Positions 14,727 to 29,963 of a DNA stretch of 64,000 nt are shown here, piece after piece. The translations under genes were made by a program, and so were the position numbers. The stretch lies in assembly GCA_017622215.1 (NCBI GenBank), contig JAGARO010000010.1, positions 1 to 64,000 of the forward strand. Reading direction: 5' to 3'. Origin of the DNA: Clostridia bacterium. GTDB lineage: Bacteria; Bacillota; Clostridia; Monoglobales; Monoglobaceae. The notes beneath the pieces are model-generated. The model worked only from the letters and a program-made list of their open reading frames with translations, ran no database searches and was not told the origin of the DNA. Positions within the stretch are counted from its first letter, which is position 1. Each line of letters begins with the position of its first letter.

Positions 14727-15891
14727 TGAACCATGGGGAATTTTAACGGGGATACGCCCTGTTAAGCTTGCTGTTTATTTATTCAAAGATGGAAAAGACG
14801 AGGAATATGTAAGACAGTATTTCTTAAATGAATACAAGGCAAGCCCTGAAAAAACTGAGCTTGCACTTGATATTGCAAAAAGGGAAATGGAGCTTACAAA
14901 AGATATGTATAAGGACGGAATAAGTCTTTATATAGGTGTGCCATTTTGCCCCTCCCGATGTCTGTATTGCTCTTTCATAACAAGTGCAAATAAGAATGTC
15001 AAGGTTATGATGCCACAGTTCGTGGAATGTTTAAAGAAAGAAATTTCATATACTGCAAAGCTTGTGAAAGAGTTTGGGAAAAGGGTTGAAACTGTTTATG
15101 TAGGCGGTGGAACGCCCACAACTTTAGAGGCGGATATGCTCCGTGATGTTTTTGAATGTCTGTATAAGGAATTTGACCTAAAAGATATGAAAGAATTTAC
15201 AGTTGAAGCAGGTCGCCCTGACACAATCACCAGAGAAAAGCTTATGGCTCTCAAGGAGTTTAATGTGGACAGAATAAGCATAAATCCACAGACTATGAAC
15301 CAGCAAACCCTTGATATAATCGGAAGAAAGCATACCCCTGAGGATATAATAAGGTCCTTTAATCTGGCAAGGGATTGTGGCTTTGACAATATAAATATGG
15401 ATTTGATTGCAGGGCTTCCCGAGGAAACCTTTGATATGTTCAGGTATTCTCTGGAGGAGGTTGAAAAGCTTTGCCCTGATGATACCACTGTTCATACAAT
15501 GAGCATAAAAAGGTCCTCAAGACTTAAGGAAAGGATTGAAGAATTTAACTTAACCCACGGTAATGAGGTAGGGAAAATGGTTGATTTTTCAAGAGAATTC
15601 TTAAAGGAAAAGGGGAAAGTTCCCTATTATTTATACAGACAGAAAAATATGCTTGGAAATTTAGAGAATGTGGGATATGCAAAGCCTGATAAAGTCAGCC
15701 TTTACAATATCTATATAATGGAAGAGGTCCAGAGCATTATAGCAATGGGCTGTGGGGGAGTTACAAAAACTGTTGACCCTGCCTTAGACAGAATTGAGCG
15801 TATTTTTAATGTAAAAGAGCCAAAGGATTATATAGAACGCATTGATGAAATGCTTCATAGAAAAGACGAACTTCGCAATTTAATAGTGTAA
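14713..15891 (+). CDS. hemZ: radical SAM coproporphyrinogen-oxidase-like protein HemZ, short N-terminus
   Basis: HemZ is a HemN-like radical SAM protein. The iron-sulfur motif is CPSRCLYC (CxxxCxxC, about residues 76-83), followed by VYVGGGTPT and the HemN-type barrel sequence (INPQTMNQQTLDIIGRKHT). It starts at PWGILTGIRP-like sequence (MNYIDEPWGILTGIRPVKL), which in the HemZ proteins I remember lies about 80-100 residues into the protein. So this 392-residue copy lacks the N-terminal domain, apparently because the gene starts inside the MBL gene. Its true substrate is uncertain. Confidence 0.86.
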   Translation: MNYIDEPWGILTGIRPVKLAVYLFKDGKDEEYVRQYFLNEYKASPEKTELALDIAKREMELTKDMYKDGISLYIGVPFCPSRCLYCSFITSANKNVKVMMPQFVECLKKEISYTAKLVKEFGKRVETVYVGGGTPTTLEADMLRDVFECLYKEFDLKDMKEFTVEAGRPDTITREKLMALKEFNVDRISINPQTMNQQTLDIIGRKHTPEDIIRSFNLARDCGFDNINMDLIAGLPEETFDMFRYSLEEVEKLCPDDTTVHTMSIKRSSRLKERIEEFNLTHGNEVGKMVDFSREFLKEKGKVPYYLYRQKNMLGNLENVGYAKPDKVSLYNIYIMEEVQSIIAMGCGGVTKTVDPALDRIERIFNVKEPKDYIERIDEMLHRKDELRNLIV

Positions 15892-15892
15892 A

Positions 15893-15923
15893 AAAGCAGA
15901 GGATTAAGTCCTCTGCTTATTTA
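15893..15923. terminator. terminator shared by hemZ and the particle cassette
   Basis: AGCAGAGGA pairs with TCCTCTGCT around TTAAG (15895-15917), with A and T runs on both sides. The lysozyme stop codon lies in the loop, so the last codons of the convergent lysozyme gene are read through the hairpin. Confidence 0.88.
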
Positions 15924-16521
15924 TTATTTTGTATAAAATCCAATAGACGCTGGAGTTTTCCTTTTTTGCTTTTTCAAGGTCTGAAACGGCTTTGTTTACG
16001 TCCTGGATTTCAATTTTAAGACTGCCGTTCATAAGCTCCCAGATTATGTCGTTTGGACTTTCAAGAGCCTTTAAAACAGGTGTGTTAAAGAGCTTTTCTT
16101 CGGCTGTTCTTCTATTTTTAAGTCCCTCTAAAACCTTTTTGCCGCCTACGTAAATCCATCTCTTAAATTGCTGACTTGCACCCTTATAATCTCCGTTATT
16201 AAGGAGAGTGAGAAGAGTGGAGGTGGAAAAAGCATTTATACCGATGTTGAAGACGAAACTTACAAGGGCGTCAAACTGATTGCTGTTAAGTGGAACTTTT
16301 ACCAGGGAATTAACAGCCTTTTCGTAGTGCTTTAAATCTTCTTTAAGCAGAGCCTCTGCTTCTTCAGGAGTAATTGTGGTCTGAGGAGTTATTTTACTTC
16401 CCCTGACCATTCCTGTATGGCCGTAGCCAATTGTAAGGACGCCTGAGGGACAAAGGTAGGCTTTAAGTCCCAGACCCTCAAAGGATTTTATAAGCTCAAG
16501 CCCCGCCTTACCTGTCTGCAT
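15904..16521 (-). CDS. phage lysozyme (GH24 endolysin)
   Basis: The 205-residue endolysin cuts the glycan strand of peptidoglycan to free particles from the cell. The T4-lysozyme-type catalytic pattern is present: Glu15 (IKSFEGLGLKAY), Cys24 at the Asp/Cys position, and Thr30 in LTIGYGHT. The core ends near residue 155 (RTAEEKLF), and a charged helical tail of about 45 residues follows. No signal peptide is seen, so it needs the holin encoded 14 bases upstream in an overlap. The stop codon falls within the hairpin shared with hemZ. Confidence 0.93.
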   Translation of the reverse strand: MQTGKAGLELIKSFEGLGLKAYLCPSGVLTIGYGHTGMVRGSKITPQTTITPEEAEALLKEDLKHYEKAVNSLVKVPLNSNQFDALVSFVFNIGINAFSTSTLLTLLNNGDYKGASQQFKRWIYVGGKKVLEGLKNRRTAEEKLFNTPVLKALESPNDIIWELMNGSLKIEIQDVNKAVSDLEKAKKENSSVYWILYKIINKQRT

Positions 16522-16756
16522 TCTTTAGCTCCTTAAGATAAAGGTCGGCCTGAAGAGCAGATTTTGTAAAACTGTTGTTTTTCCACCATACAATAAGGCT
16601 TGTGATAATTGTGGCAAGGAGGGACAATAGCTGATAAACTGTGTCTTCTTCAATTGGGAGGCTGTCTTTTCCAAAGATTGCTAAAGCCTGATTTATTAAA
16701 GCTATGTACATAAAAAATGTTCGTGTTATTGTGGAAATTGTAGGTCTGTATTTCAT
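16508..16756 (-). CDS. phage holin, phiLC3/SPP1 type
   Basis: The predicted 82-residue membrane protein has two hydrophobic helices (TFFMYIALINQALAIFG and LLSLLATIITSLIVWW) separated by a short turn containing PIEEDTVYQ, then a charged tail WKNNSFTKSALQADLYL. This is the usual pattern of phiLC3-family holins, which make pores that let the endolysin reach the wall. ATG at 16756 has AAGGAG 6-7 bases upstream. The longer frame from 16795 lacks such a site and would overlap the neighbour. It overlaps the lysozyme gene start by 14 bases. Confidence 0.9.
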   Translation of the reverse strand: MKYRPTISTITRTFFMYIALINQALAIFGKDSLPIEEDTVYQLLSLLATIITSLIVWWKNNSFTKSALQADLYLKELKNADR

Positions 16757-16767
16757 ATTTTTCTCCT

Positions 16768-17190
16768 TTACAGAAATATATTTTCGCTTAAGCATTTTGT
16801 GTAAATGTCTTTTATGCGTTTACTTGTGAGGGCTGTTATGTTATTTTCGAAATGAGGGTTTTGCCTGCAGTAGTTTTCGTAGCAGGTTATATCTGTTAAA
16901 ATCTGGTCGAAATGCTCCTTGGTGTGTTGCTTGTCGTGGAGTATTTCGTCCCCGAATCGCAATATTCTTGCTCTGCACTGCACTGCAAAATTCCTTGAAA
17001 CCTCTGTTTTGAAGGCAATAAATTCATCCGACAGACTGTTTAAGGAATTGTGCATTTCCTGATTTAGAGCTCTGCCGATACATCGGGCAAGGGCGCTCCA
17101 GGGATTGATTTTCACAGGGGTTACCTGAATTAAAGTCAGTAAAATGAGAACTAGAGTACAGCCTCCTGCTGTAAGGTCTTTGAGGGTCAT
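16768..17190 (-). CDS. small membrane protein of phage lysis/tail region
   Basis: The 140-residue protein has one N-terminal membrane helix (CTLVLILLTLIQVTPVKINPW) and a long helical cytoplasmic or outside part with paired cysteines and histidines (ENYCRQNPHFENN). The pattern of a short helix, NPWSALAR, and YENYCRQNPHF resembles a small protein that often stands between tail genes and holin in Firmicutes phages. I recognise it as phage-associated but not its function; a holin partner is possible. Its start overlaps the gene before it by 4 bases. Confidence 0.75.
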   Translation of the reverse strand: MTLKDLTAGGCTLVLILLTLIQVTPVKINPWSALARCIGRALNQEMHNSLNSLSDEFIAFKTEVSRNFAVQCRARILRFGDEILHDKQHTKEHFDQILTDITCYENYCRQNPHFENNITALTSKRIKDIYTKCLSENIFL

Positions 17191-17462
17191 TCTTCGGCTC
17201 CTGACTCATATTTACGAACTGTATAAACCGGTACAATTTCGTTGTTTACAAGGCTGAACCTTTCCTCTATGTATTCATCTCCCTTAAGTTCGGGATAAGG
17301 AATGTTCTTATATGGATAGTAGCCGTTTTCTCTTGCGATTTCAGGATTTTTATTGAGATAGGATAAAAGATTTGAAAAGCCTGTCCTTTTTCCGTTAACA
17401 ACAATATATCCATTTTGGGGAACATTTGTTATATTTTTTTCATTTATAAATTTCATTAACAT
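17187..17462 (-). CDS. small phage tail-region protein (XkdX/XkdW-position), unknown function
   Basis: The 91-residue protein reads MLMKFINEKNITNVPQNGY at the start and ends with KGDEYIEERFSLVNNEIVPVY, a style found in short proteins after tail-fibre genes in phages, but I do not recognise a defined family. ATG at 17462 is chosen because AGAGG lies 6 bases upstream; the GTG at 17471 overlaps that site. It follows the gene before it without a gap and overlaps the next one by 4 bases, so it belongs to the same transcript. Confidence 0.62.
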   Translation of the reverse strand: MLMKFINEKNITNVPQNGYIVVNGKRTGFSNLLSYLNKNPEIARENGYYPYKNIPYPELKGDEYIEERFSLVNNEIVPVYTVRKYESGAEE

Positions 17463-17463
17463 A

Positions 17464-18099
17464 TTATTCACCTCTTAAAAAACTGTTTTTGCCATTACTT
17501 TTATAGAAAGTGTTAGTTAGTGTATCAATAAATCCGACTTTCAGGTCCGGTTTTCTTACTGCAGGAACTAAATCTAAAATGAGCTTGTTGTCCTGAAAGA
17601 TTTTGAAACTGTAAACTAAACCAACAGTAGAATAAGAACCGGTGCTTGTTTGAGAAAACAGTTGCAGAAACCCTTTTGTTGGAGCGTTAACACAATTTAT
17701 GGTTTCATGGATGTTTTCTTCAGGAATGGAAAATCGTGTTTCTTCCTGGGAAATTCTTTCTATTATAAATGTGTTTTTATTAAAGAAATAACTTCCTTCA
17801 GGAGTTGTAACAGATTTTTCAGATATATTAAATCTGTGCTTAGTATAGGTTGGAGTCATTAATTGCAAAGAAAAATCGGATGCCCCATCCTGACTTAAGA
17901 AATTCAGGCAATATGGATTTCCTAACAGATATCTTTTATTGCTTGCAGGTTTATATACCAGCTCTATTCTTGTTCCTTTTGCGGGAAGCTCTATTTCGCC
18001 TAAATCCAGATGTGAGGATGAGACAATTTGGATAGAGGGCACTTGCTCGTATCTGTATTTAAAGATAAGAGCCATTCGATGGATATTAAACATTGGCAT
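17464..18099 (-). CDS. phage tail/host-contact protein, carbohydrate-binding-like
   Basis: The 211-residue protein is all-beta in style. Its C-terminal block (YSFKIFQDNKLILDLVPAVR followed by KPDLKVGFIDTLTNTFY) resembles a motif of gut-phage tail-fibre ends in which an object's displacement and a later text-like repeat read vPAvRk-D-vvGlyD. I remember this motif from distal tail proteins in Clostridia phages. It is therefore likely a receptor-binding protein. Translation starts at ATG 18099 with a GGAGG site. The binding target is unknown. Confidence 0.68.
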   Translation of the reverse strand: MPMFNIHRMALIFKYRYEQVPSIQIVSSSHLDLGEIELPAKGTRIELVYKPASNKRYLLGNPYCLNFLSQDGASDFSLQLMTPTYTKHRFNISEKSVTTPEGSYFFNKNTFIIERISQEETRFSIPEENIHETINCVNAPTKGFLQLFSQTSTGSYSTVGLVYSFKIFQDNKLILDLVPAVRKPDLKVGFIDTLTNTFYKSNGKNSFLRGE

Positions 18100-18110
18100 C
18101 TTTATACCTC

Positions 18111-18893
18111 CTATTCAGGAATATATCCTATAGACAGTGCTCCCGCAACCCAGCCCCATTTATCGTATTGGAAGAAAATGTCGCATCCGACTCCTGTTAT
18201 GTCCGGTAAGCAGTTATTGAAAAATAAATTTGTGCCATAGCTTACAGCAGGTTCTCCTTCGATTGTTGCGTGAATCAGAATCTGGTGGTGCTTTCCGTCA
18301 GTAATTTCGGGAAGAACAAAGTCTATGTTTTCTAAAAGTTCTATTGAGTAGACTTTGTCCGGAAGAAGATAGGGACTCTCAAGAGGAATAATATCATGCT
18401 CCATAACCCCTTTTGCCTTTACACCTGTGTTTATGTAATCCTTTTTGTCCTCATCCCATATATACCAACAGGCATCTTCACCGATTTTTGGGACAGAGTG
18501 GGACATTAGACTTGTAATTGTGTTTATATATTCCTGCCAGATTTCAGGTGTAGGTGCAAGTGTTTCTGTAATATCCTCATTATAAGCGCCTTTAGACACT
18601 TTTATTGGAGCAAGAGAGGTGGATAGAATGTCTGTCCCATTTTCTTTTGAAGAACCGAAAATACCAACATAAACTGTTCTGTCAGTCTTTAAAGCTTCCT
18701 TTGGAATTTTACACGAGTCATCAGTTACCGGGACAGTGTAATTTTTATCTCCGCTGAAGACGGCAAATTTATTAAAGCTGTCCCATTTTGGTGAAAAGGA
18801 AAACTTACATTCATAAGTATTTACATTTCCTGTGTATACTACAGTGTTTGTAAAAATAATTTTATCGTCATTTACTGCATAATTAAATATCAT
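18111..18893 (-). CDS. phage baseplate/tail upper protein, BppU-like
   Basis: The 260-residue protein starts with a beta domain (IIFTNTVVYTGNVNTYECKF, then SFNKFAVFSGDKNYTVPV and VYVGIFGSSKENGTDILST) of the kind seen in N-terminal modules of tail proteins that bridge the tip to receptor-binding proteins. The second half, after a linker with TPEIWQEYI, is less conserved. The gene lies between two other tail genes in the same frame direction with a GGAGG site. A structural role at the tail tip is likely; the exact function is not known. Confidence 0.68.
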   Translation of the reverse strand: MIFNYAVNDDKIIFTNTVVYTGNVNTYECKFSFSPKWDSFNKFAVFSGDKNYTVPVTDDSCKIPKEALKTDRTVYVGIFGSSKENGTDILSTSLAPIKVSKGAYNEDITETLAPTPEIWQEYINTITSLMSHSVPKIGEDACWYIWDEDKKDYINTGVKAKGVMEHDIIPLESPYLLPDKVYSIELLENIDFVLPEITDGKHHQILIHATIEGEPAVSYGTNLFFNNCLPDITGVGCDIFFQYDKWGWVAGALSIGYIPE

Positions 18894-18905
18894 ATTTCCG
18901 CCTCC

Positions 18906-19673
18906 TTATACAAAATAAATATCAATGTTTTTGTAGGTCTGACTGCCAAGGGCGCAAAGAGCAATTTTATTGTCCCTTATCTCGTAGTAGATATGGGCGT
19001 TATCAGTATCAGCATTTAATATTTTGTCTGAATTTAAGTCGTATATGCGGACAGGAAATTTGTAGTTTTCATATGCACTGTGCTGAACCAAAGCAAACAT
19101 AAAATTAAAGTCTGAATAGTCAAAATCAGGGGTATAGATTGTGTTCTCATTCTTAACTGTTATGTTTGACAATGTGATTTTCTTTATATTATTTCTGCCA
19201 AATGTTACAACCTTGCTTTTTGCATGGGCTCTAAGGTCTGTAAGGACTCCGGTTGAGGAAATTTTTCCAAGGAGAATCGGATGGACATGGTTTGTGTCGG
19301 CAGGTCTGGATGGAGAACTCATAAAGGATATAATGTTTGTTTCCTCGTTGTGTTCTGCATAAATGTAATTTGTTTTGCCTGCTATGATTTCAACCTCTGT
19401 GCCATCATCGTCCACCTCAACAGTTGCACCGCTTGAGAAAAATCCAATGCCTTTGCCGATTCTGGCGATGTTATCTTCCACTGTAACCTTAAGCCCATTC
19501 ATGCTTGTTCCCGCCTCAACAAGTTCTTTTGTGAGACTGTTTAAGTCTTCAGGGGCATAGGTATCCTTTGTTAAAAAAGGGGAAACCCCTGAGCCTGTAA
19601 TCTTTTGCACGATACCATTTATATCTTCAGCTCCGTAAGTTTCCCCGTCTAAAAAACTATATTTATATGCCAT
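18906..19673 (-). CDS. phage tail structural protein
   Basis: The 255-residue protein has a short helical start (YSFLDGETYGAEDINGIVQKI and APEDLNSLTKELVEAG), followed by beta-rich sequence containing NYIYAEHNEETNIISFMSS and HVHPILLGKI. This combination occurs in phage tail-fibre attachment proteins that sit after the Gp37-like protein. AAGGAG precedes ATG at 19673. Role: minor tail component or fibre, by position. I do not know the exact family. Confidence 0.68.
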   Translation of the reverse strand: MAYKYSFLDGETYGAEDINGIVQKITGSGVSPFLTKDTYAPEDLNSLTKELVEAGTSMNGLKVTVEDNIARIGKGIGFFSSGATVEVDDDGTEVEIIAGKTNYIYAEHNEETNIISFMSSPSRPADTNHVHPILLGKISSTGVLTDLRAHAKSKVVTFGRNNIKKITLSNITVKNENTIYTPDFDYSDFNFMFALVQHSAYENYKFPVRIYDLNSDKILNADTDNAHIYYEIRDNKIALCALGSQTYKNIDIYFV

Positions 19674-19688
19674 TTTATCACTCCTTTT

Positions 19689-20624
19689 TTAATCTTCTAA
19701 TATAGGCTCCTCGCCAATTCCTTCTCCTCGTTCAGCCCACTTGCTTACACCGATTATCTTCTTTGTGATGCAGATATTCTTGTCGCCAATCCTCATCTGT
19801 ACTCTTACTGTGTCCCCTAAGTTATAGTCCCTGCCGTGAATAAAGTCAGAGGTTTTAACTGTAACACGTTTTTTTCTGCCCAGACGCTTTATTTTATCTT
19901 TCTTTCGTTCTGTGCCTGATACATTTATAGTTCCCTGAAATGCAAATAGTCCTGTAAGGTCTCGGTCGGTGCCTACGGTTGTGTTTCGGGTAGTATTTAT
20001 GTAGTCTAAAATGTCGTGGGTATAGCATAGATTATGGGCGTTGCGATTTTCAGGAGAGAGAATAATGTCCCTGATTTCTTTACCTTTCAGGAGGCTGAAA
20101 ATCCATTTTTTATTTATAGTGTCAAAGGTAACGCTGTGGCCCAGATTCTGTGTATCAAGCATCTCGCAAACAACCTCTGAAAGATTTTCGTTTTCATAGA
20201 TTGCACAGGTTATTTTGGAGGTATTTTCTATGGATTCTCCTAAAATGAAATGACTGTCGTTAAGACGTACAATTGAAGAATCTATAAATGAAGATTTTAT
20301 AAGCTTTCTTACACTTGACTCTAAAAATGCGTCATTGAAGGTATTGCTATCGGTAACTCTTTTTGTGAGTATAAAGTTCATTGTTCTTCCGTAGAGAGTC
20401 AAATCTTCTTCGTATACCTTGGTTGTGATTATAAATGAATGGCCTTTATAACAGGCAACAAGAAAATCTGTATCAAGAATTTTATGTGCCTTTTCACTTT
20501 CCTTTGGAATGTGGATTTCTGCTGTGCCAACCTTGTTAAAATACTCTGTGAGATTTACAGAAATAAAATCGGGGACGCTGCAGAGGAAATCAAAATGAAA
20601 ATCATAAAAAAATATTTCTTCCAT
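19689..20624 (-). CDS. tail tip protein, siphovirus ReqiPepy6 Gp37-like
   Basis: The 311-residue protein matches the Gp37-like tail-tip family: YDFHFDFLCSVPDFISVNLTEYF, FLVACYKGHSFIITTK, LTLYGRTMNFILTKRVT, then GRDYNLGDTVRVQMRIGDK near the C-terminus. Such proteins form the tail-tip hub, the short counterpart of tail-associated lysin proteins. There is no peptidase domain. It starts at the stop of the distal tail gene (1-base overlap), so the pair is coupled. Confidence 0.85.
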   Translation of the reverse strand: MEEIFFYDFHFDFLCSVPDFISVNLTEYFNKVGTAEIHIPKESEKAHKILDTDFLVACYKGHSFIITTKVYEEDLTLYGRTMNFILTKRVTDSNTFNDAFLESSVRKLIKSSFIDSSIVRLNDSHFILGESIENTSKITCAIYENENLSEVVCEMLDTQNLGHSVTFDTINKKWIFSLLKGKEIRDIILSPENRNAHNLCYTHDILDYINTTRNTTVGTDRDLTGLFAFQGTINVSGTERKKDKIKRLGRKKRVTVKTSDFIHGRDYNLGDTVRVQMRIGDKNICITKKIIGVSKWAERGEGIGEEPILED

Positions 20625-21457
20625 TACATTCCTGCCTCCCCGAAGAGTATATCGTGTTCAATTGAAAGGGAGATGTCTATGTTGTCAGCAACGGCTGAAA
20701 TAACATTTTCCCCCGGTACAAGACTGAAATTATAGAGGAAGCTTGTGTCTGTAAGATAGGAGAGGAGGTTTTCTCCGTCCTGCCTTTTTACAGTTCTCCT
20801 TTTAATATCAATAATAATCTCATCCCCTTTTTTGAGAGGAACTTCTGAAAAAGCAATTTCTGTGGCTGTTGTGGAATTTGTAAGGGTAACATTGCCCTCG
20901 ATTTCATCCTTGCCCTTGTAGAAAACATAAACCTTTGGACAGGTAGAAATATAGCTTATGTTATCTATGATTCTTGTGTTTGTTCTCTGGGAGAGGACTG
21001 CAGGAAGAGAAAATCCGTTTTTGATGTTTTTTTGGGTATTAAAAAGAGGATAATACTCTTTTTCAAGTTTTGTAAAATAGGGATTGTCGCAGACAAATTG
21101 TACTGCAAAAACCTTATATTTTCCAACTGTTTCGCCCATTTTAAGCTCCTGACAATAACAGGCGATTTTTCTCTCAACGCCATTATGGGACACAATAAGC
21201 TCTCCCTTGTGGTAGAGAATTCTTATAATTTCCTCCATTGAAATGTCCGGGTTAATTTCATAATCACAACTCATTGTGATAACTCTTTCCCTGTCCTTTT
21301 CGTAGTAGGTGCTTTGTCCCGGGATTGTAGGAAAATTGTAGCTTTTTCTTGTCTTTTCAATAAGGCCTGTGCCCTCAATACTTGTGATGTGAATATAGCC
21401 CTTTGAAGAACCGCTAAATGGGATTTCTCCCTCATTGTTACGGTAAATAATATCCAT
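20624..21457 (-). CDS. distal tail protein (Dit)
   Basis: The 277-residue protein has the features of the siphovirus distal tail protein: a start that sets the reference frame of the structure (IPFSGSSKGYIHITSIEGTG), TYYEKDRERVITMSCDYEI, then the hallmark FVCDNPYF, and a galectin-like C-terminal domain with YVFYKGKDEIEGNVTL. It forms the hexameric ring at the tail end that holds the tip. It overlaps the tape measure stop by 1 base. Confidence 0.9.
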   Translation of the reverse strand: MDIIYRNNEGEIPFSGSSKGYIHITSIEGTGLIEKTRKSYNFPTIPGQSTYYEKDRERVITMSCDYEINPDISMEEIIRILYHKGELIVSHNGVERKIACYCQELKMGETVGKYKVFAVQFVCDNPYFTKLEKEYYPLFNTQKNIKNGFSLPAVLSQRTNTRIIDNISYISTCPKVYVFYKGKDEIEGNVTLTNSTTATEIAFSEVPLKKGDEIIIDIKRRTVKRQDGENLLSYLTDTSFLYNFSLVPGENVISAVADNIDISLSIEHDILFGEAGM

Positions 21458-22434
21458 TATGCTCCACCTCCGTTTATGCCTGCTGCACGGATTACAGCAA
21501 GAGTTTTCTTCATCTGATTGACAGTCTCGGTATTTGTCATACCTGTGCCGTTTATGTTTATGTTGTTTGTGTTATTCACGTTGGAAACTCTGGTTGTGCC
21601 TGCAGTTTGCGGAGTCAGAGAGGCGGTAAAGGTACTTATTTTCGTGCGGATTTTTGCAAGCTGACTGTCAAGCTCGTGGATAAAAGCTGAACCGAAGTTT
21701 CGGGCGGAAACTGTACCGCTTGTGAAAAATCCCTCGGGAACCTGAAAACCCACAGCCTCAAGCTTTTCTCTCATATAGTCAACCGATGAATCTACAGCTT
21801 TTCCGAAATCCTCTGAATAAAGCTGTGCAGAAATTTCCTGGGACAAGTTCTGCTTTTTGTCCCATCCTGAAATGAAGTTCTTAAACTGTGAGTCGTCAAC
21901 GGACAAAAGTACGTTGGAAAAATTCAATGCTTCGGAGATATCCATTGAGGCAATTTCGTTGAAAAATGCCCGTGCAATTTCATCTGAAAAGCCTGATGCT
22001 CCGATTTTGTTTTTAATATTTAAGATATTGTCCCTGTATAAAGTCAGCTTTCGTATGTCGTTTTCAAAGTCGTTGAGATAATTAAGACTTTCTGTTTTGC
22101 CTCCGCTTTTGAAAGTAAACTTTCCGAAGTATCTGCCTCCGAAGTCCTTAAGCTTGTTTTCAAGCTTTTTCTGAGAATTTATTACCTGTTCGATTTCGGT
22201 TTCAGCATAGGAGGCAATGTCCTTGTAGATTGCCTTTATTTCCGATTTCAGGGTAGTCATAATTGACTTTTTAGCATTGCAGGTACGCATAAGCTGGTTT
22301 ATGTATTCCCTGTCGGAAAGCTTTTGCTCTTCAAGGATTTTGCTGTTTGTAAGCTTCTCAAGTCGCTCTTTTTCAGCGTTAAATTCTTTTATATTTTCAA
22401 GGTTTTCCCTTGAAGTGTTATCTGTGTTTGCCAT
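21457..22434 (-). CDS. short tail tape measure protein
   Basis: The 325-residue protein is mainly helical and ends with an Asn/Thr-rich stretch (NNTNNININGTGM) and MKKTLAVIRAAG, as in C-terminal parts of tape measure proteins; the region ISGWDKKQNLSQEISAQLYSEDF is also typical. It has no transmembrane segments and lacks the long N-terminal half, so it is far shorter than the usual 700-1500 residues. By the known rule of about 1.5 angstrom per residue, a tail near 50 nm would be set. It follows the Gp15-type chaperone gene, the standard place. Confidence 0.82.
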   Translation of the reverse strand: MANTDNTSRENLENIKEFNAEKERLEKLTNSKILEEQKLSDREYINQLMRTCNAKKSIMTTLKSEIKAIYKDIASYAETEIEQVINSQKKLENKLKDFGGRYFGKFTFKSGGKTESLNYLNDFENDIRKLTLYRDNILNIKNKIGASGFSDEIARAFFNEIASMDISEALNFSNVLLSVDDSQFKNFISGWDKKQNLSQEISAQLYSEDFGKAVDSSVDYMREKLEAVGFQVPEGFFTSGTVSARNFGSAFIHELDSQLAKIRTKISTFTASLTPQTAGTTRVSNVNNTNNININGTGMTNTETVNQMKKTLAVIRAAGINGGGA

Positions 22435-22445
22435 ACTTCTCCTTT

Positions 22446-22997
22446 CTACATAAGCTTTCCGAATTCCGCACCGATGTCGTTGTCGGGTTCTGTGGACGGA
22501 ATCCGGAATTGCCTCTGCAGTTTTGACAGCATTGCCCGTTGCTCCTTGTCCTGAATTTTTGATGGATTTATATTGCGGATTTGCATTACCTCACAGATAC
22601 GGTTGTCGGGGGTAAGCCCTTTAAAAAGACTTATAAATTTCCACCAGTGAATGGGGGTTTGATTCAGGTCTATGCCGTATTGGGACAGAAAGGCTGAATA
22701 AATTAAATCTCCGTCATAAGAAAAGTCAAGGAGCTTTTTTGAATTTTTCTCTGTGGGGGCAGAGGGGGAAATTGCATAAAAATTAAAAAGTTCCTTTATC
22801 GTTTCCTCCAGAGAGGGAGGAAGAGTCCTGTCTTTGAGGCACAGGGAAATTATTTTTATATATTTATCCCAAAGAGGTATATTGTCGTTTGTCATTATCT
22901 CCTCAAAGGAAATCCAGACCTTATGGCTTGTATTTATTTTATATTTTTTATCCCTGACAGTTATGAAGTCGGGCAAAGTGTCAACTAATATATTCAT
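22446..22997 (-). CDS. tail assembly chaperone, Gp15 family
   Basis: The 183-residue protein fits the phage Gp15 family: KINTSHKVWISFEEIM, LLDFSYDGDLIYSAFLSQYGIDL, then HWWKFISLFKGL. These proteins stand between the tail tube and tape measure genes and act as assembly chaperones. No separate overlapping frame for a frameshift product was found with certainty. The gene starts 2 bases after the tail tube stop. Confidence 0.88.
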   Translation of the reverse strand: MNILVDTLPDFITVRDKKYKINTSHKVWISFEEIMTNDNIPLWDKYIKIISLCLKDRTLPPSLEETIKELFNFYAISPSAPTEKNSKKLLDFSYDGDLIYSAFLSQYGIDLNQTPIHWWKFISLFKGLTPDNRICEVMQIRNINPSKIQDKEQRAMLSKLQRQFRIPSTEPDNDIGAEFGKLM

Positions 22998-22999
22998 AA

Positions 23000-23476
23000 T
23001 TAGTTAAATGAGATTGTAGCGAAATTGTCGCCTGATGTTGCAACGCCCTCGATAATTTCACCGCAGGCGCTGAAGCTTCCGCTGTATGTGTATGCGTCTG
23101 TGGAGTCGCCTTCTTTGTTAGGAATTACAGAGAAGCTTCTCTTTCTCGCCTTGTAACCGCCGTCAACCTCTTTTGAAAGGTCAACAACAATAATTGAACG
23201 GACAGCGTCTGTGCCTGTGATTTCCTTGTCGTGAATCTGGGCAATATCAAGATGAACAGGGTTTTCAGAATGCATATCAAAGGAATAGCTGATTTCAGTT
23301 GAGTAGCCTACAACTGCTGTCTGCTTGAATTCCTCGTCAATATACTGTCTTGAGTATTCAATTGGATTTTTTTCTGTTGTGATGTCAGTAAACTTTGACA
23401 TTCTGTGATAAGTTGCTACGCCGTTTTCCATAACTTCGTAAAAGGCAACTTTCTGGGCTCTTTTAACTAAGCTCAT
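23000..23476 (-). CDS. major tail tube protein
   Basis: The 158-residue protein has the beta-rich sequence expected for a small siphovirus tail tube: TYHRMSKFTDITTEKNPIEYSRQYID, VGYSTEISYSFDMHS, KARKRSFSVIPNKEG, YTYSGSFSACGEIIEG. It lies between the tail terminator and the Gp15 chaperone. The start at 23476 is preceded by AAAAGGAG. The repeated structure would stack in hexameric rings around the tape measure. Confidence 0.88.
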   Translation of the reverse strand: MSLVKRAQKVAFYEVMENGVATYHRMSKFTDITTEKNPIEYSRQYIDEEFKQTAVVGYSTEISYSFDMHSENPVHLDIAQIHDKEITGTDAVRSIIVVDLSKEVDGGYKARKRSFSVIPNKEGDSTDAYTYSGSFSACGEIIEGVATSGDNFATISFN

Positions 23477-23478
23477 TT

Positions 23479-23889
23479 TTATTTCTCCTTTTCATATACT
23501 AATCTTAATTTGATTTCATACACTGCAGATTTACTGTCAGTTTTCTTCTGTGCTCCTGAAGATAAAACTTCTAACCACAATGGGCTTATGCCCTTAATTT
23601 CAGGGAATTCCCCCTTTTCGTTTTTTTCGTATATCCACTCTGAAAGCTCTTCAAAAAGCTGTGCGGAGTCAAGATTTGTGTCGCAGAATTCGTCTGTTAC
23701 AGCTCTGTACTTTAAGATAAAGACATACTGAAAAACTGCCTCTCCGTCTGCGTAAACCTTAACGAGAGGAGTTTCGCCTGCAGGGAAAATTCCACAGGCG
23801 GGAGTAGAGTTTGGTAGATAGTCCGGGTGTATTGTAGTATTTTCCAGGGGCTTAAAATCAGAAAAAAACGCTACTGTTTCGTGAATCAG
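23479..23889 (-). CDS. tail terminator/minor capsid-3-like protein with a CTG (or ATT) start
   Basis: No ATG, GTG or TTG start exists for this frame, so it is easy to miss. The frame is open over 136 residues (IHETVAFFSDFKPLENTTIH ... LWLEVLSSGAQ ... YEIKLRLVYEKEK). The end, SGAQ followed by VYEIKLRLVY, is typical of minor capsid/tail terminator proteins that close the tail tube. GGGGG lies 7 bases before CTG at 23889, and that CTG overlaps the TGA stop of the gene before it, like a normal ATGA junction. ATT at 23886 is the alternative. Confidence 0.82.
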   Translation of the reverse strand: MIHETVAFFSDFKPLENTTIHPDYLPNSTPACGIFPAGETPLVKVYADGEAVFQYVFILKYRAVTDEFCDTNLDSAQLFEELSEWIYEKNEKGEFPEIKGISPLWLEVLSSGAQKKTDSKSAVYEIKLRLVYEKEK

Positions 23890-24155
23890 ATAAATTCCCC
23901 CTTTATTTTATAGTGAGGGCGTGTGCCCCTTAAATTATTATAAACCGCTGTGATTTTATAGGACTTGTCCTTAGGAGGATTTTCCTCGCTGGTTACTCCC
24001 CGTAGGATATAGTCCTCAGGGCTTATTTTAATTGGCTCATCTGTAAAAATTCTTACAGTAATTGTGTCTGAGCCATGGACGGATATGTTTTCATACACTG
24101 TTTTTTCATATTTTTTTGAGAGTTTGTTATGGTGATAGACCGTTATTTTATTCAA
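23886..24155 (-). CDS. head-tail stopper/minor capsid-1-like protein
   Basis: The 89-residue protein starts at TTG 24155 (GGGGTGG upstream), overlapping the end of the adaptor gene by 8 bases; the ATG at 24209 is well inside that gene. KITVYHHNKLSKKYEKTVYENISVHG with TVRIF and TDEPIKISPEDYILRG is typical of small minor capsid proteins between adaptor and tail terminator. It probably plugs the portal after packaging. The neck order adaptor, stopper, terminator, tube is complete. Confidence 0.78.
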   Translation of the reverse strand: MNKITVYHHNKLSKKYEKTVYENISVHGSDTITVRIFTDEPIKISPEDYILRGVTSEENPPKDKSYKITAVYNNLRGTRPHYKIKGEFI

Positions 24156-24483
24156 GAATAATACCACCCCTATAGAGATAATTTGTATTCCCGAAATAAA
24201 GCTTAACAATCCTTAAAATCTCCATTTCTACTGGAGAATTTTCGTATGAAACGCTGTAGCCGTCATTGTTTTCCGAAGAAATTCCAAGCCTCTTGCCGTT
24301 CTCATAGAGTAGGTCTGAAATATGACAGATGCAGGGCTTTAAGCCAGGTGCATCGATTTCTTCAAGAGGGGAGTTTACATATCTTAAAAGACAGTATTCT
24401 CCGCGGGTTTCCCATAAGGGAAACTCCGCAGATGGAATTTTCGAATTACCGTTTTCTATGTAGAAATTGTAATCAACTATCAT
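24148..24483 (-). CDS. head-tail adaptor (connector) protein
   Basis: The 111-residue protein lies straight after the capsid gene, where the ring that attaches below the portal is encoded. Its N-terminus DYNFYIENGNSKIPSAEFPLW is hydrophilic, and ENSPVEMEILRIVKLYFGNTNYL is helical. I assign the role by position and size; the family match is weak. It ends 8 bases inside the next gene. Confidence 0.7.
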   Translation of the reverse strand: MIVDYNFYIENGNSKIPSAEFPLWETRGEYCLLRYVNSPLEEIDAPGLKPCICHISDLLYENGKRLGISSENNDGYSVSYENSPVEMEILRIVKLYFGNTNYLYRGGIILE

Positions 24484-24486
24484 AGT

Positions 24487-25320
24487 TTACGCCTTGAACT
24501 GTGCGAGGACAACCTTAGAATCGTTAGAAAGAGCAACAGCGTAGAACTTATCTACTGAAATATCAGTAGCTCTCTTTAATGCCTGACGTGTTACTTCTAC
24601 GTTTGTATCTCTCTTGAGGTATACTGTAACAGCAGGAGCTTCAGCTTCGTCAAGTACCTGGAGCTGTACGATTGGGTTAGTGAATGTGCCGTCTTCTTCG
24701 TTCTTTAAAACCTTGTTTGAAACAACAATTCTTGTGTTTGCAATCATACCGATTTCTCCTGTGAGCATAACGTTACCCATATACTTGTCAGCAGAAATAA
24801 AGTCAGCATCCTTTCTTAAGTCTGTCATCTGTTCAGGGTGAATGAACATAACCTTTTCTGTGTTAACTTCTTCGTTGAACATTCCAAGGGCAGATACGAT
24901 ACCTGTATAGCCAATCTTGTTGTCTGTGCCGTCAAACTTAACTGTTGCAGTAAGAAGAACGTTTAATGCGTCGCTGTCAAGCTTTGCAGCGATTGACTTT
25001 GAAATCTGTGCGGCAGCTTCGCCAACAGGGTTACCGTAGCCTGTGATTAATGCTTCGTCTGTGATTTCAACAGCCTTAAGAGCCTTGCTTACAGTTACAG
25101 TTGTTGTAGATGCCTGAAGGTCTGACGGAGAAACTTCGTCGCCCTCTGCTACAGCTGTAGCATCACCGATATATGTGTACTGCGGAACCTTGATTGAATC
25201 CCCCGGTGTGCCAAGTAATGTTTCGTCAATTCTTGCAAATGGTGCAACAACCATTCTGCTCTGGATTTTTGATGAAATAAGGTCTGAAAGTACCTGTTCG
25301 TTAATTTCGTTGTTAAACAT
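24487..25320 (-). CDS. major capsid protein, N4-gp56/HK97-fold family
   Basis: The 277-residue protein has the features of N4-gp56-type capsid proteins: start FNNEINEQVLSDLISSKIQSRM, LGTPGDSIKVPQYTYIGDA, ASTTTVTVSKALKAVEITDEAL, TEKVMFIHPEQMTDLRK, and the end YLKRDTNVEVTRQALKRATDI. No prohead protease gene is present, as is usual for this capsid group with a Gp20-type scaffold. AAAAAGGAG precedes ATG at 25320. The size is small but complete. Confidence 0.92.
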   Translation of the reverse strand: MFNNEINEQVLSDLISSKIQSRMVVAPFARIDETLLGTPGDSIKVPQYTYIGDATAVAEGDEVSPSDLQASTTTVTVSKALKAVEITDEALITGYGNPVGEAAAQISKSIAAKLDSDALNVLLTATVKFDGTDNKIGYTGIVSALGMFNEEVNTEKVMFIHPEQMTDLRKDADFISADKYMGNVMLTGEIGMIANTRIVVSNKVLKNEEDGTFTNPIVQLQVLDEAEAPAVTVYLKRDTNVEVTRQALKRATDISVDKFYAVALSNDSKVVLAQFKA

Positions 25321-25334
25321 AATTAGTCTCCTTT

Positions 25335-25823
25335 TTATTTTGTAAATTCGTTATAAAGTGAGGGATTTTCAAGGTATAGCTTTACCCTTTCGGCATAGCT
25401 CATCTTTGAAAAATCCTTCTTTGTTGTGTTGCCCTGAGCAACCTTTCCCGTAAAGCTTGGTGTTTCACCGCTGAAGAGATAAGGGTAGGAGTCTTTAAGA
25501 GCCTTTACCTGCACAGAGATTTCTTCCTCACCGTTTAGAAAATGGCTTATAAGTTCAGGGTTTTTGACGCCCTCCTCCTTAAGATAACGGTTAAGTTCCG
25601 CAGTTTTCTTCTCATTTCTTAACTCTTCAAGCTCTGAAATCATAGCTTCGTTTTCTTCAGCTCCCTTTTTAAGAGTTGCAATCTCGTTTTCGAGAGCCTG
25701 ATATTTTTCCCGGCTGACATAGTTTCCGTCAGTCAGGTTAGCAAGCTTTACATCTTTATCCTTAAGAGCGTCCTCTAAGGAAGTGTAAAGCTCCTCTGTT
25801 AGAATTTCTTTTAAGAATTCCAT
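25335..25823 (-). CDS. capsid scaffold protein, Gp20 type
   Basis: The 162-residue protein begins MEFLKEILTEELYTSLEDAL and has a long charged coiled coil (EKYQALENEIATLKKG with EAMISELEELRNEKK), then a C-terminal helical end YAERVKLYLENPSLYNEF; this is the phage minor structural GP20/scaffold pattern. The ATG at 25823 is chosen because the family starts there; the frame from 25895 adds 24 residues with no homology. It directs capsid assembly around the portal. Confidence 0.86.
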   Translation of the reverse strand: MEFLKEILTEELYTSLEDALKDKDVKLANLTDGNYVSREKYQALENEIATLKKGAEENEAMISELEELRNEKKTAELNRYLKEEGVKNPELISHFLNGEEEISVQVKALKDSYPYLFSGETPSFTGKVAQGNTTKKDFSKMSYAERVKLYLENPSLYNEFTK

Positions 25824-25943
25824 ATTGCCTCGTGTGTCACAGTTTTTATATGTGGTGTCTCCACTGACAGCGAAAGTTTTTGTCCCATTCCGCAAGGGAA
25901 AATTTTATTAAAAACAACTGCCCCTCGAGTCAGGCTGTTGGTT

Positions 25944-27266
25944 TTAAGCATTTTGTTTTGCGATTTCCTCTTCCTCGCCGAAGTACCACATTCTCATTTC
26001 ATAAGGCTTCATAATGCCCTGTTCGAGAAGTGAAAGCTTTTCTTTGAATTCTGTCTGACGGTCAGCAATAATGCTGTCGTCAAAGTCAAAGGAGAGGTAG
26101 TAGTCCCCTCTTGGTGCAAGGTTATAGAGAGAAATGTAGGCGTCGATTACGCCGCAAAGCTCTGTAAGTGCATTTTTGAGATTTGCCTGAATTTCAGCCA
26201 CATGAGCATAGCTTCTCTGCTTTGATGTGCGGATTTCCTCTGCAGTTTTATCCTTGTTTTCAACATTGGATAATGTGCCGTAGGTAAGACCGCAACTAAA
26301 TTCAATCTGTCGTAAAATAAGGTCAAGGCCTCGGATGAGGTTCTGTTCCCTGAGGGTTGGTGTCCAGTCCTTAAATAAGGCTTCGTCAGAACTTATCATT
26401 CTGTATAAACGCTTGTCAGGGAGAATTCTTGTGCCGTTTCCGTCACGGAATACAGCTGTATCGTCAACGTAAACTGCCCTTTCCCCTGACTTGAATTCCC
26501 AGAGCAATCGTGAATACTGCTTGTCAGCTTCACGGATTAAAGAGGTTGCCCTTGAGAATACTGAAACTCCAAGAGGGGAGTGGGTGTCAAAGGTGTTTGC
26601 CATAGGCATCTTAAAGTATGAAAACAATGGCTTTTTAAGGTTTTCAATGGTTGTTTCAGCCTGAAGATTTTTCCATTTCGGAACAGAACTAAGTGGAATT
26701 TCTGCTCCAAGGTCCCCCTTTGTTGTGCTTACAAAGGCTGTGTTTCTCACCTTGTAGAGACCCTCTTCAAAATGGTGATATTCAAGGCGTGTGTAGTAAT
26801 CGTTTCCATCCTTGTAGCAATCTCTGAAAATTGCGCCTGTTATGTTCCCTGAAGAGTCAAAGGCGGTAGGGATAAAGCTGTCTGCCTGAATGACATCAAT
26901 GCCGATTGTGCCGTCCTGAACATAGGGCTTGAAAATTACACCACCGCCTGCACAGGCAAGTTCAACTGTGGGTTTTATAAGGGAAATTAAATCCTGATAA
27001 GGCTTGTTGATAAACCTTGCTCTCTCCGAGCCTTTTACCTCTGAACTGAAATTTAAGGCTACAAGTCTTGAAATTTCATCGGAGATTGAGGCTGGAAGTC
27101 CAAGACTTTTTACATCTTTTTTAAGCCAGGATGCCTGCCCGCTGTACATGGAAAGCCACTCTGAAATGTAGCCTGACATTTCGTGGGACATAGCCTTCCC
27201 TAAATTCTTTTCAATAATTTCTGTGTTCATATTCATCTTCCTTCTGAATAAATTTTTAAGGTTCAT
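25944..27266 (-). CDS. portal protein, A118 family
   Basis: The 440-residue portal forms the 12-mer ring through which DNA enters the head. The sequence follows the A118-type portal: SLGLPASISDEISRLVALNFSSEV, ACAGGGVIFKPYV, VIQADSFIPTAFD, the region HSPLGVSVFSRATSLIREADKQYSRLLWEF, and GLTYGTLSNVENKDKTAEEI, the last being highly typical. It overlaps the terminase stop by 1 base (TAATG). It is complete, with no minor head protein gene after it. The 120 bases to the scaffold start hold no clear gene. Confidence 0.93.
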   Translation of the reverse strand: MNLKNLFRRKMNMNTEIIEKNLGKAMSHEMSGYISEWLSMYSGQASWLKKDVKSLGLPASISDEISRLVALNFSSEVKGSERARFINKPYQDLISLIKPTVELACAGGGVIFKPYVQDGTIGIDVIQADSFIPTAFDSSGNITGAIFRDCYKDGNDYYTRLEYHHFEEGLYKVRNTAFVSTTKGDLGAEIPLSSVPKWKNLQAETTIENLKKPLFSYFKMPMANTFDTHSPLGVSVFSRATSLIREADKQYSRLLWEFKSGERAVYVDDTAVFRDGNGTRILPDKRLYRMISSDEALFKDWTPTLREQNLIRGLDLILRQIEFSCGLTYGTLSNVENKDKTAEEIRTSKQRSYAHVAEIQANLKNALTELCGVIDAYISLYNLAPRGDYYLSFDFDDSIIADRQTEFKEKLSLLEQGIMKPYEMRMWYFGEEEEIAKQNA

Positions 27267-28432
27267 TATTTACTCCTTTTTTTAAGTATTGTTGATACAA
27301 AATATCTCATATCGTCCATTGCGTGGTCGTTTTCTTTTATTACCGTGTCATTCCCCTTTTCTGTATCCCAGGAATAAGAGGAGAACTCCCCGATTATGTC
27401 CTTGCACTTTGAGGAAAACATAAGCTGTCCCCCTGACAGACAGGAGGATACGTTTCGTATTCCGTCTAAAACAGAGTTGTTAGCTTTCCTTACGGGGAAT
27501 CTTCCGCGTCGTTTTATTGCAGTTATAAAGCTTGAGGCCGAGGGGTCAACGATTACAGCGCGAATGTCTGTATCGGCTGTAAGTTCCTCAAGCTTGTCGC
27601 AATATTCTTCGTCTGTTAAAAGAGAATTGTCTCTTCCGTTGTGGTAAAATTCCCTGATTCTGTATGCAATGTTGTCCCGTGAGATGCCCCAAAGGCCCAT
27701 TGAACAGGGGTTAAGGGTTCCATAGTCAATGGAAACATAATAATCTTTAAAGGGAGGAAAATTATCGGTAATATGTATATCGGGGCTGAACATAGGATAG
27801 ACAAGCCCCTCGGCTCTTGTCCATTTTCCTAAAATGTATCTGTCGTAAAGGACAGTCCCCGCGTATTCCTTTTTTAAGTTGTCAACAAAGCTTTTCGAAA
27901 GAAAAGGGTTGTCGTCAATGGTGTAATTCTGACAGAAAATGTCAGCGTCGCTGTCTAAAAATTTCTTAAACCAATGGGATGGGGAGTCGGGGTTACAGGT
28001 TCCGTCAAAAAGACTTGTTGGCTTGTCAAGACGGGATTTGAGCATATTGAAAACTGCCTCGCTCCAGGTGGTAATTTCATCGCCATAGCAGTATTCAACC
28101 CCTGCACCCTGAAGTCTTGATGCCTGACAGGCCTTGTCTGCCCCTAAAACGAAACAGTTTCTCCCGAAGAGATTGACTGTATTGTTTCCTGTAACTCTTC
28201 CTACAAGGGACTTGCCGTAGATGTTTCGCATAGGTGCTAAAATGTTTCTCTCTACAGTATTTTTTGTGTGTCCCATTATGAGAATAATTCCATTGCTTCC
28301 TGCGTTTTTAATACGCTTGGGAATAAGGAAATAGTCAAGGTAGGTCTTTCCGCTTCGTGTAGCACCGCATTTTATGTTCCAGCGGTGGTTAGCGTTGTTC
28401 CAGAACTCCTTTTGTTTAGCCGATAGCTTCAT
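27266..28432 (-). CDS. terminase large subunit, PBSX family
   Basis: The 388-residue motor protein packages DNA into the prohead. ATPase motifs are intact: Walker A GATRSGKT (residues 23-30) and Walker B CYGDEI (near residue 115). The nuclease domain keeps SIDYGT (about residue 235), VDPSA, and HAMDDMRY. ATG at 28432 has a GAGGAG site 8 bases upstream and is preferred to the TTG at 28438. It overlaps the small terminase gene by 17 bases. Both enzymatic halves look active, which argues against simple decay of the cassette. Confidence 0.94.
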   Translation of the reverse strand: MKLSAKQKEFWNNANHRWNIKCGATRSGKTYLDYFLIPKRIKNAGSNGIILIMGHTKNTVERNILAPMRNIYGKSLVGRVTGNNTVNLFGRNCFVLGADKACQASRLQGAGVEYCYGDEITTWSEAVFNMLKSRLDKPTSLFDGTCNPDSPSHWFKKFLDSDADIFCQNYTIDDNPFLSKSFVDNLKKEYAGTVLYDRYILGKWTRAEGLVYPMFSPDIHITDNFPPFKDYYVSIDYGTLNPCSMGLWGISRDNIAYRIREFYHNGRDNSLLTDEEYCDKLEELTADTDIRAVIVDPSASSFITAIKRRGRFPVRKANNSVLDGIRNVSSCLSGGQLMFSSKCKDIIGEFSSYSWDTEKGNDTVIKENDHAMDDMRYFVSTILKKRSK

Positions 28433-28829
28433 TGTCAATCTCCTCTATCAGCCCTGAAACCAGAGCGTCAAGCTCTTTTTCGGTCTCATCGGTTTTCCCG
28501 TTCCACCCCTCGAAACAGCTCGTAAGGGTGAACTTTGCACCGTTTAAGGTGTCCTTGTCATACAGCCTAAGCTGTATAAGGTCCTCACACTTTGTAATAA
28601 GACATGAAATCTGTTTTTTAAGAGGGCCTTTATATGAAAGCATTTCTTTAACTGAATTAAAACCCAGTGCCAGAGCAAGCCCTGACAGATTGGGAGGCGG
28701 GGGAGTGTCATAGATATATCCTCCGTTTTTGTCTGTTAAAGGACTTCCGTCGGAATTATAGAGGAGAGTTTTTTCGCTCTTCCTGAAATATTCCTCGGCA
28801 GCTGCTTTTAATGTTTTTTTGCTTAGAAT
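28416..28829 (-). CDS. terminase small subunit, Gp3 DNA-packaging family, ATT start
   Basis: The 137-residue frame starts at ATT 28829, eight bases from a good AAAGGAG site; no ATG, GTG or TTG occurs in frame before Met63. The N-terminal part (KTLKAAAEEYFRKSEKTLLY, DTPPPPNLSGLALALGFNS) has the small terminase helix-turn-helix start, and the C-terminal part ISCLITKCEDLIQLRLYDKD and TLNGAKFTLTSCFEGW matches the Gp3 packaging family. An ORF search with standard starts shows only 75 residues. It recognises DNA for packaging; the pac/cos specificity is unknown. Confidence 0.87.
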   Translation of the reverse strand: MLSKKTLKAAAEEYFRKSEKTLLYNSDGSPLTDKNGGYIYDTPPPPNLSGLALALGFNSVKEMLSYKGPLKKQISCLITKCEDLIQLRLYDKDTLNGAKFTLTSCFEGWNGKTDETEKELDALVSGLIEEIDNEAIG

Positions 28830-28895
28830 GTTACCAGCTCCTTTCGGGAAAAGAGTAGCACAAAACCTACCGCAACAAACAGAAACAAATTATTA

Positions 28896-28922
28896 ACACA
28901 GAGGAAAAAAGTTCATAGAATA
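28896..28922 (+). promoter_or_regulatory. SigK-type promoter of the DUF11 gene
   Basis: CATAGAATA (28914-28922) exactly fits the SigK -10 consensus CATANNNTA, and an AC (28896-28897) stands 16 bases upstream as in the SigK -35. No SigA-type hexamers are convincing here. sigK itself is 1.8 kb downstream. Confidence 0.6.
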
Positions 28923-28971
28923 TAAGGAGAATATTTAATATTCCAATAAAAATAGAAAGGAAGTTAGAAAT

Positions 28972-29871
28972 ATGCCAGAAATTCAGAATCAGGCCAGCCT
29001 GACCTACCTGTATGGCGGGACAAATCAGGGCACGGCTCTTTCAAATGTAGCCACCACAAATCTGGAAGGGCCTGTTACTATCAATAAAACAGCTCTTCAG
29101 GATACTTATCGCGGCGGCACGCAGATAACCTATATTGTTACAATCACAAATTCAGGAGAATGCGGAAGCGTTGGATATACTCTGACAGATGATTTAGGTA
29201 CATTCACAAACGGAACCTGCACCTCCACACCTCTTAATTATGTTGGCCCTGCCCAGCTTTATGTGGGCGGACAGTTCTATTCAGTCCTGACACCGACTGT
29301 AGCACAGGGCTTGGTAACCTTTGATATTCCTGCCCTCCCTTGTAACACTTCAGCAATGCTCATTTATGTTGCAGAGGTAAATGAATGTGCAAACCTTGCG
29401 GTTGGCGCATCTATTGAAAATACAGTAACTCTCACAGGCGGTAACCTTTGCGAACCTTTAACAGATTCAAATATTATCGACGTGGCTGTTTACGCCGATG
29501 TTGACATTATTAAGTCAATGACACCAAATCCATTCGTATCAGGCGGTACACTCACCTATACCTTTGACCTTTTCAACTACGGTAACACAGAGGCTACGGA
29601 TATTGTCTTAACAGATGTATTCAACCCTGCCCCTGAAAGTATTGCAATTACTGTAAACGGAGAGGTGCTGTCCCCTGCTTTATACAGCTATACAAACGGT
29701 GTTCTCACAATCCCTGCAACTGCAGGAGTTACAATTCCTGCAGCAGACTTTGTGCTTAACAACTGTTGCTATGCAACCACAGCAGGTCAGACCCAGATTG
29801 TTGTTACAGGTGTTGTAAGAAGCTGTCCAACCGACGGCGTTACAACTAACCTTTGTCCTTGTAATTCATAA
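28972..29871 (+). CDS. DUF11-repeat protein, probable mother-cell spore-surface protein
   Basis: The 299-residue protein has no signal peptide and no membrane segment. It contains two DUF11-type beta domains (about residues 30-150 and 170-290; TYIVTITNSG and TYTFDLFNYGNTEATDIVLTD are typical) and ends in a cysteine-rich tail (NNCCYATTAG, LCPCNS). A SigK-like promoter precedes it. The lack of a secretion signal with a late mother-cell promoter suggests a spore coat or exosporium protein; that is inference. AGGAAG precedes ATG at 28972, and a terminator follows. Confidence 0.78.
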   Translation: MPEIQNQASLTYLYGGTNQGTALSNVATTNLEGPVTINKTALQDTYRGGTQITYIVTITNSGECGSVGYTLTDDLGTFTNGTCTSTPLNYVGPAQLYVGGQFYSVLTPTVAQGLVTFDIPALPCNTSAMLIYVAEVNECANLAVGASIENTVTLTGGNLCEPLTDSNIIDVAVYADVDIIKSMTPNPFVSGGTLTYTFDLFNYGNTEATDIVLTDVFNPAPESIAITVNGEVLSPALYSYTNGVLTIPATAGVTIPAADFVLNNCCYATTAGQTQIVVTGVVRSCPTDGVTTNLCPCNS

Positions 29872-29873
29872 AA

Positions 29874-29899
29874 AAAGACGGGTTATCCCGTCTTTTTTT
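29874..29899. terminator. terminator of the DUF11 gene
   Basis: AAAGACGGG and CCCGTCTTT pair around TTAT (29875-29896) with a run of T after it. Confidence 0.9.
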
Positions 29900-29963
29900 A
29901 TGCCCGCTTGACGAAAAGTGGTATTTGGGTTACTATATAGAAAAACTGTATGGAGTAAAGATT

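Follow-up and report, generated by a model that had tools for sequence, protein, structure and literature searches.

The 64-kb stretch of DNA that was analysed, hereafter the window, carries 20 intact minus-strand genes that fill positions 15904-28829 (12.9 kb) and encode packaging, capsid, neck, short siphovirus tail, host contact and lysis functions, as determined from the open reading frame listing and family searches (Table 1). The genes follow the order small terminase (TerS), large terminase (TerL), portal, scaffold, capsid, adaptor, neck, tail completion, major tail protein, Gp15, tape measure, Dit and Tal. Four tail-tip, fibre or small proteins, a holin-proximal protein, a holin and a lysozyme complete the cassette. 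Neighbouring genes overlap or abut, and only 12 bp separate the end of the lysozyme gene from the end of hemZ. The complete 20-gene cassette with coupled-operon overlaps, as claimed in a first-pass annotation made from sequence alone, was thus upheld. A 46-codon frame at 25811-25951 was considered as a 21st gene and rejected as non-coding for lack of conservation in the sister species. On the other side of the cassette, positions 28972-29871 encode a DUF11-domain surface-like protein, divergent from TerS, which the sister species also has next to its cassette.

Table 1. Cassette genes and flanking features of the window, in cassette order
Feature	Position	Strand	Support
Small terminase TerS, 137 aa, ATT start	28416..28829	-	PF16677 GP3_package 31.8 bits, cutoff 29.4
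Large terminase TerL	27266..28438	-	phrog_2 4e-44, PF03237; ATPase and nuclease motifs intact
Portal protein, SPP1 gp6 type	25944..27266	-	phrog_533 6e-117, PF05133; dN/dS 0.025
Capsid scaffold	25335..25817	-	PF06810, phrog_194
Major capsid protein, HK97-type, 277 aa	24487..25320	-	phrog_544 6e-66, PF25209
Head-tail adaptor	24148..24483	-	phrog_541
Connector/neck protein DUF6751	23886..24152	-	PF20536
Tail completion protein, CTG start	23479..23889	-	phrog_3266 1e-21; open frame
Major tail tube protein	23000..23476	-	phrog_3099 1e-38; homologous to structural gene of phage RG-TP1
Gp15 tail protein	22446..22997	-	PF06854 2e-37
Shortened tape measure protein, 325 aa	21457..22434	-	Position and homology to relatives
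Distal tail protein Dit	20624..21457	-	phrog_33, PF22768
Tal/minor tail protein	19689..20624	-	phrog_538, PF14594
Tail-tip protein, conserved in compact cassettes	18906..19673	-	HMM matches across cassettes
Fibre/baseplate-like protein	18111..18893	-	phrog_19695
Probable receptor-binding protein, fast-evolving	17464..18099	-	59% identity to sister species, dS 1.7, dN/dS 0.18; function inferred
Small protein of unknown function	17187..17471	-	Kept in sister species, dN/dS 0.135
Holin-proximal membrane protein	16768..17190	-	phrog_37604 8e-43
SPP1-type holin	16508..16795	-	PF04688 1e-23
T4-type lysozyme	15904..16521	-	PF00959 2e-49
Divergent intergenic region, candidate promoter	28830..28971	.	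1 mismatch in 142 bp vs sister species; ~4% around it
Left host flank, hemZ	14713..15891	+	Conserved recJ-relA-mbl-hemZ block
Right host flank, DUF11 protein and comF	28972..30683	+	Same flank in sister species

We then considered the integrity of individual products. TerL retains Walker A (GATRSGKT), Walker B (CYGDEI) and the nuclease acidic motifs. At what we take to be its catalytic positions the lysozyme has E, C and T, with a Cys at the position of the Asp of T4 lysozyme; apart from this substitution, the earlier claim of intact terminase motifs, portal and lysozyme active site held. The annotated start at 28829 was also correct, yet no ATG, GTG or TTG is found there: TerS starts with ATT (28827-28829), preceded by AAAGGAG as it also is in the sister species, and the full-length product scores above the PF16677 cutoff. 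A 75-aa TerS lacking the DNA-binding part was considered and rejected because of this conserved ATT start. The tail completion gene starts with CTG (23887-23889), and it is possible that these rare starts limit packaging output. AlphaFold single-sequence models of the tape measure and TerS were too weak for any use.

The cassette contains structural and lysis genes only, with no repressor or replication gene within 15904-28829. No integrase family match was found in the window, all three tyrosine-recombinase matches of the genome lying outside it, and a search for attachment repeats bracketing the cassette found none. The first-pass annotation had reported the lack of all these elements, and family and repeat searches confirmed it. 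The portal and scaffold genes have no minor head protein gene between them, and no sheath gene was recognised, the tail being shortened and non-contractile. No regulator accompanies the window cassette; despite this, its upstream region is nearly identical between the two species. Cassettes of genus g9 have a divergent XRE repressor and an ArpU-like regulator directly upstream (L018:14528-15922).

Comparison with a second species of the genus (G001, a metagenome-assembled genome, or MAG, from water-deer caecum) revealed the same 20-gene cassette between hemZ and DUF11/comF, with all genes open. Between the window and G001, dN/dS ranged from 0.025 in the portal to 0.27, with a total of 0.14 (dN 0.059, dS 0.42); host flanks gave 0.04-0.14. 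All cassette genes thus remained below 0.28, and of the particle genes those for portal, capsid, major tail protein and TerL were the most constrained. The earlier inference of selection from the open frames was therefore confirmed, the ratio not being near 1. The same pattern of purifying selection was seen again in the pairs G053/G054, G019/G023 and G003/G011 (total dN/dS about 0.1-0.16), and the cassette has been kept between species and between genera that show a synonymous divergence of 0.4-2. Synonymous divergence was uneven along the cassette, with dS of 0.14-0.18 in the TerS-to-capsid genes versus 1.2-1.7 in four tail-tip genes (17187-19673), which may reflect exchange of alleles among host-contact genes.

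Absence from close relatives was checked by a portal search of 38 genomes of the family, which includes Monoglobus. Exactly one copy was detected in every genome of three genera (2/2, 2/2 and 9/9; 13/13 in total), and only one of the remaining 25 genomes gave a match, at a divergent phage-like locus. No full parent prophage was seen nearby, and the portal occurs once in the window genome. In a second family, reached via G054, strong single-copy matches were obtained in 13 of 20 genomes; most of these loci share the gene order, and no phage early genes were recognised near them. When 391 evenly sampled Clostridia genomes were searched for Dit, 35 gave a match; the fetched loci comprised compact cassettes in 14 of the sampled genomes, from seven families, and ordinary prophages in others. 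ComEC was not found in the window genome and is present in 9 of 11 cassette genomes.

Several compact cassettes are already included in IMG/VR, and some loci depart from the common organization. A relative in G068 (L189) keeps TerL, portal, scaffold and capsid and has lost the tail genes; L064/G057 lacks TerL beside the portal, TerL possibly being elsewhere in the genome. In G104 (L258), the interval from the major tail protein to Dit contains no recognisable Gp15 or tape measure, and the G054 tape measure gene lies in two frames (L052:15174-16385), through a frameshift or an assembly error. Two independent records, L065:2740-13454 and L113, are rearranged, with capsid-to-Dit first and then TerS-TerL-portal-scaffold-Tal.

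Cassette sites differ between genera and are stable within lineages. In relatives, unrelated genes follow the recJ-relA-mbl-hemZ block, indicating that insertion at hemZ is specific to the window genus. In genus g9, recD2 lies downstream of the cassette in all five informative genomes (G009, G019, G023, G049 and G050; RecD2 68-92% identical), a thiT-like gene lies upstream in five genomes of the second family (G070, G072, G075, G076 and G077), and G137 and G257 have both flanks in common. Moreover, FastTree trees of six cassette proteins largely matched host RelA trees within clades, as in (G019,G048)/(G015,G050), (G074,(G072,G076)) and (G068,G069), with a few weakly supported nodes differing. 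A comF-cassette-sigma synteny shared between families was rejected as evidence, since the hemZ site is genus-specific and the sigma genes are apparently different paralogues (SigE with SpoIIGA in G054 and SigK-like in the window, as read from the sequence).

Approximately 70 loci with complete information, with lengths taken stop to stop, fell into two classes. About 30 compact loci have a tape measure no longer than 488 aa and lack a minor head protein, whereas 38 prophage loci have a tape measure of at least 540 aa together with a minor head protein of 370-700 aa; L134 and the decayed G447 are exceptions. The association of a short tape measure with an absent minor head protein gave a Fisher p of about 2e-17, although the counts are not phylogenetically independent. 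G103 and G397 each hold one cassette and one related long-tape prophage. Compact cassettes are not monophyletic: a temperate phage group (L098/L099/L106) is sister to the g9 cassettes, and its viral contigs L098 and L099 carry integrase, repressor and recombination genes. A single domestication event is thus unsupported by the tree, and the compact class is probably polyphyletic, which points to repeated parallel domestication or, alternatively, to cassettes and phages having exchanged their head modules.

Taken together, the intact packaging-to-lysis set without autonomy genes, the genus-fixed locus with one copy per genome, the purifying selection and the recurrent compact architecture are directly established. 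They meet the criteria of a gene transfer agent (GTA) as to complete structural and packaging genes, lack of autonomous replication or integration genes, and vertical inheritance under purifying selection. The cassette is thus likely a domesticated, vertically inherited, GTA-like siphovirus structural operon. The earlier proposal of a candidate GTA is in this sense supported as the best reading; host-DNA packaging and transfer remain inferences, as no particles, packaged DNA or transfer have been observed and the DNA content of the particle is unproven. The product of the operon would be a small, DNA-filled particle with a short tail; that it carries DNA is suggested by how strongly the packaging and head genes are constrained. 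Without replication or integration functions and with a fixed locus, this DNA would most likely be host chromosome, with which the terminase would fill heads by headful cutting. Since holin and lysozyme lie within the operon, release by lysis of a subpopulation is predicted, and the particles may then inject their DNA into kin. Tail length follows about 1.5 angstrom per tape measure residue, a rule that predicts a tail of roughly 50 nm for the shortened tape measure. Points against the GTA reading are the complete phage-type TerS, the lack of a linked regulator, the non-monophyly, the differing loci between genera and the ComEC not found in the window genome.

The TerS of RcGTA, the GTA of Rhodobacter, has reportedly lost its DNA-binding domain, which was offered as an explanation of random packaging (PMC6854486). 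The window TerS covers positions 8-100 of 105 of the gp3-type profile and is, with its helix-turn-helix-like stretch, a complete gp3-like protein of phage type. No such domain loss is therefore observed in this genus, and the RcGTA account is not directly applicable. The 99-aa TerS of genus g3 lacks the basic N-terminus of its phage relative (phrog_2412 37-105 versus 1-105).

The main rival is a PBSX-like killer particle, which would be headed and contain host DNA and would kill related strains without delivering genes. PBSX provides a Gram-positive precedent (PMC12946183), and the host-contact genes evolve fastest and look exchanged (dS 1.2-1.7 versus 0.15 in head genes), as would fit a changing target range. 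However, a killer needs mainly a tail, yet the genes under the strongest constraint include those for terminase, portal and capsid, and the shortened, non-contractile tail without a detectable sheath gene further argues against this reading, which we consider unlikely. A phage satellite or mini-phage, still mobile and replicated or integrated by a helper, could account for the non-monophyly, the different loci in different genera and the two genomes that also hold a related long-tailed prophage. This cassette has a complete head and tail of its own, in contrast to satellites that borrow such parts; integrase, repressor, replication gene and attachment repeats are lacking, and the near-universal single copy is fixed within genera. 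This makes a satellite very unlikely. The first-pass annotation had named both alternatives together with a recent deletion, for which no parent prophage was seen. Finally, a decaying defective prophage remnant would fit the absence of all early genes and the tail-gene loss in G068, but is all but excluded by 20 open frames, a total dN/dS of 0.14 and maintenance across species and genera.

The GTA-like reading can be extended to a bolder one, which in our view could as readily prove wrong as right: that a widespread, undescribed class of siphovirus-type GTAs exists in Clostridia, that it arose several times from related temperate phages with the same two reductions each time (the minor head protein lost and the tape measure reduced to about 325-490 aa), and that such GTAs account for some of the GTA-like packaging in the gut without an assigned locus. 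GTAs are known mainly from Alphaproteobacteria, and FpGTA of Faecalibacterium is the first from a gut commensal. If the bolder reading were true, a second, architecturally distinct gut GTA type would be fixed in whole genera of anaerobes living in the gut, and host-controlled DNA exchange would be common in Clostridia. The tape-measure and minor-head signature offers a simple genomic test separating cassettes from prophages, now mixed in virus catalogues, and repeated domestication with identical losses would supply independent replicates of which particle changes make a GTA. We found no description of siphovirus-type cassettes in the open-access literature searched.

Among known systems, temperate siphophages of gut Clostridia (FP_Lugh, RG-TP1 and the C. 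difficile phage Hain-Saunders; L098, L099, L106) have TerL, portal, scaffold, adaptor, tail completion, major tail and Gp15 proteins homologous to those of the cassette. Their tape measure, at about 600-1100 aa, is longer than that of the cassette, and they have in addition a minor head protein as well as integrase, repressor and replication genes; the named phages with homologous heads have full early regions. The definition of an F-type tailocin, a tail without capsid or terminase, is not met, as capsid, portal and TerL are intact and strongly constrained. Capsid-forming satellites (cfPICI-like) do not match either, since the cassette lacks integrase, regulator and replication module and has its own tail genes. 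PBSX of Bacillus subtilis is likewise a domesticated phage particle of a Gram-positive host, but its tail is contractile and it does not inject its DNA (PMC12946183).

RcGTA resembles the cassette in size, head-to-tail order, short siphovirus tail and vertical inheritance. The resemblance claimed in the first-pass annotation held only partly, for generic order and size: without a direct comparison to RcGTA, the window proteins match apparently different Pfam/PHROG families (SPP1-type portal, scaffold, gp3-like TerS), and the lysis genes lie inside the operon. FpGTA is podovirus-like, split into 10.5-kb and 5.5-kb operons, packages 8.4-8.9 kb of host DNA, is near-universal in its genus and has lysis genes (PMC12946183, Nat Commun 2026). 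Podovirus-like cassettes of about 8-20 kb (L075, L078, L088, L089) were observed beside argS in several Oscillospiraceae/Ruminococcaceae MAGs. They combine TerS-TerL-portal-scaffold-capsid with a large 690-aa protein, lack genes for a major tail protein or a tape measure, and have portals that are homologous at 35-38%; they fit the FpGTA description better than the window cassette does and may be the FpGTA I family. The window cassette shares with FpGTA a clostridial gut host, an operon that encodes TerS, TerL, portal, scaffold and capsid but no replication functions, lysis genes and near-universal presence in its genus. It differs in organization, the only level compared in the absence of a direct sequence comparison, as a single 12.9-kb operon with a full siphovirus tail module.
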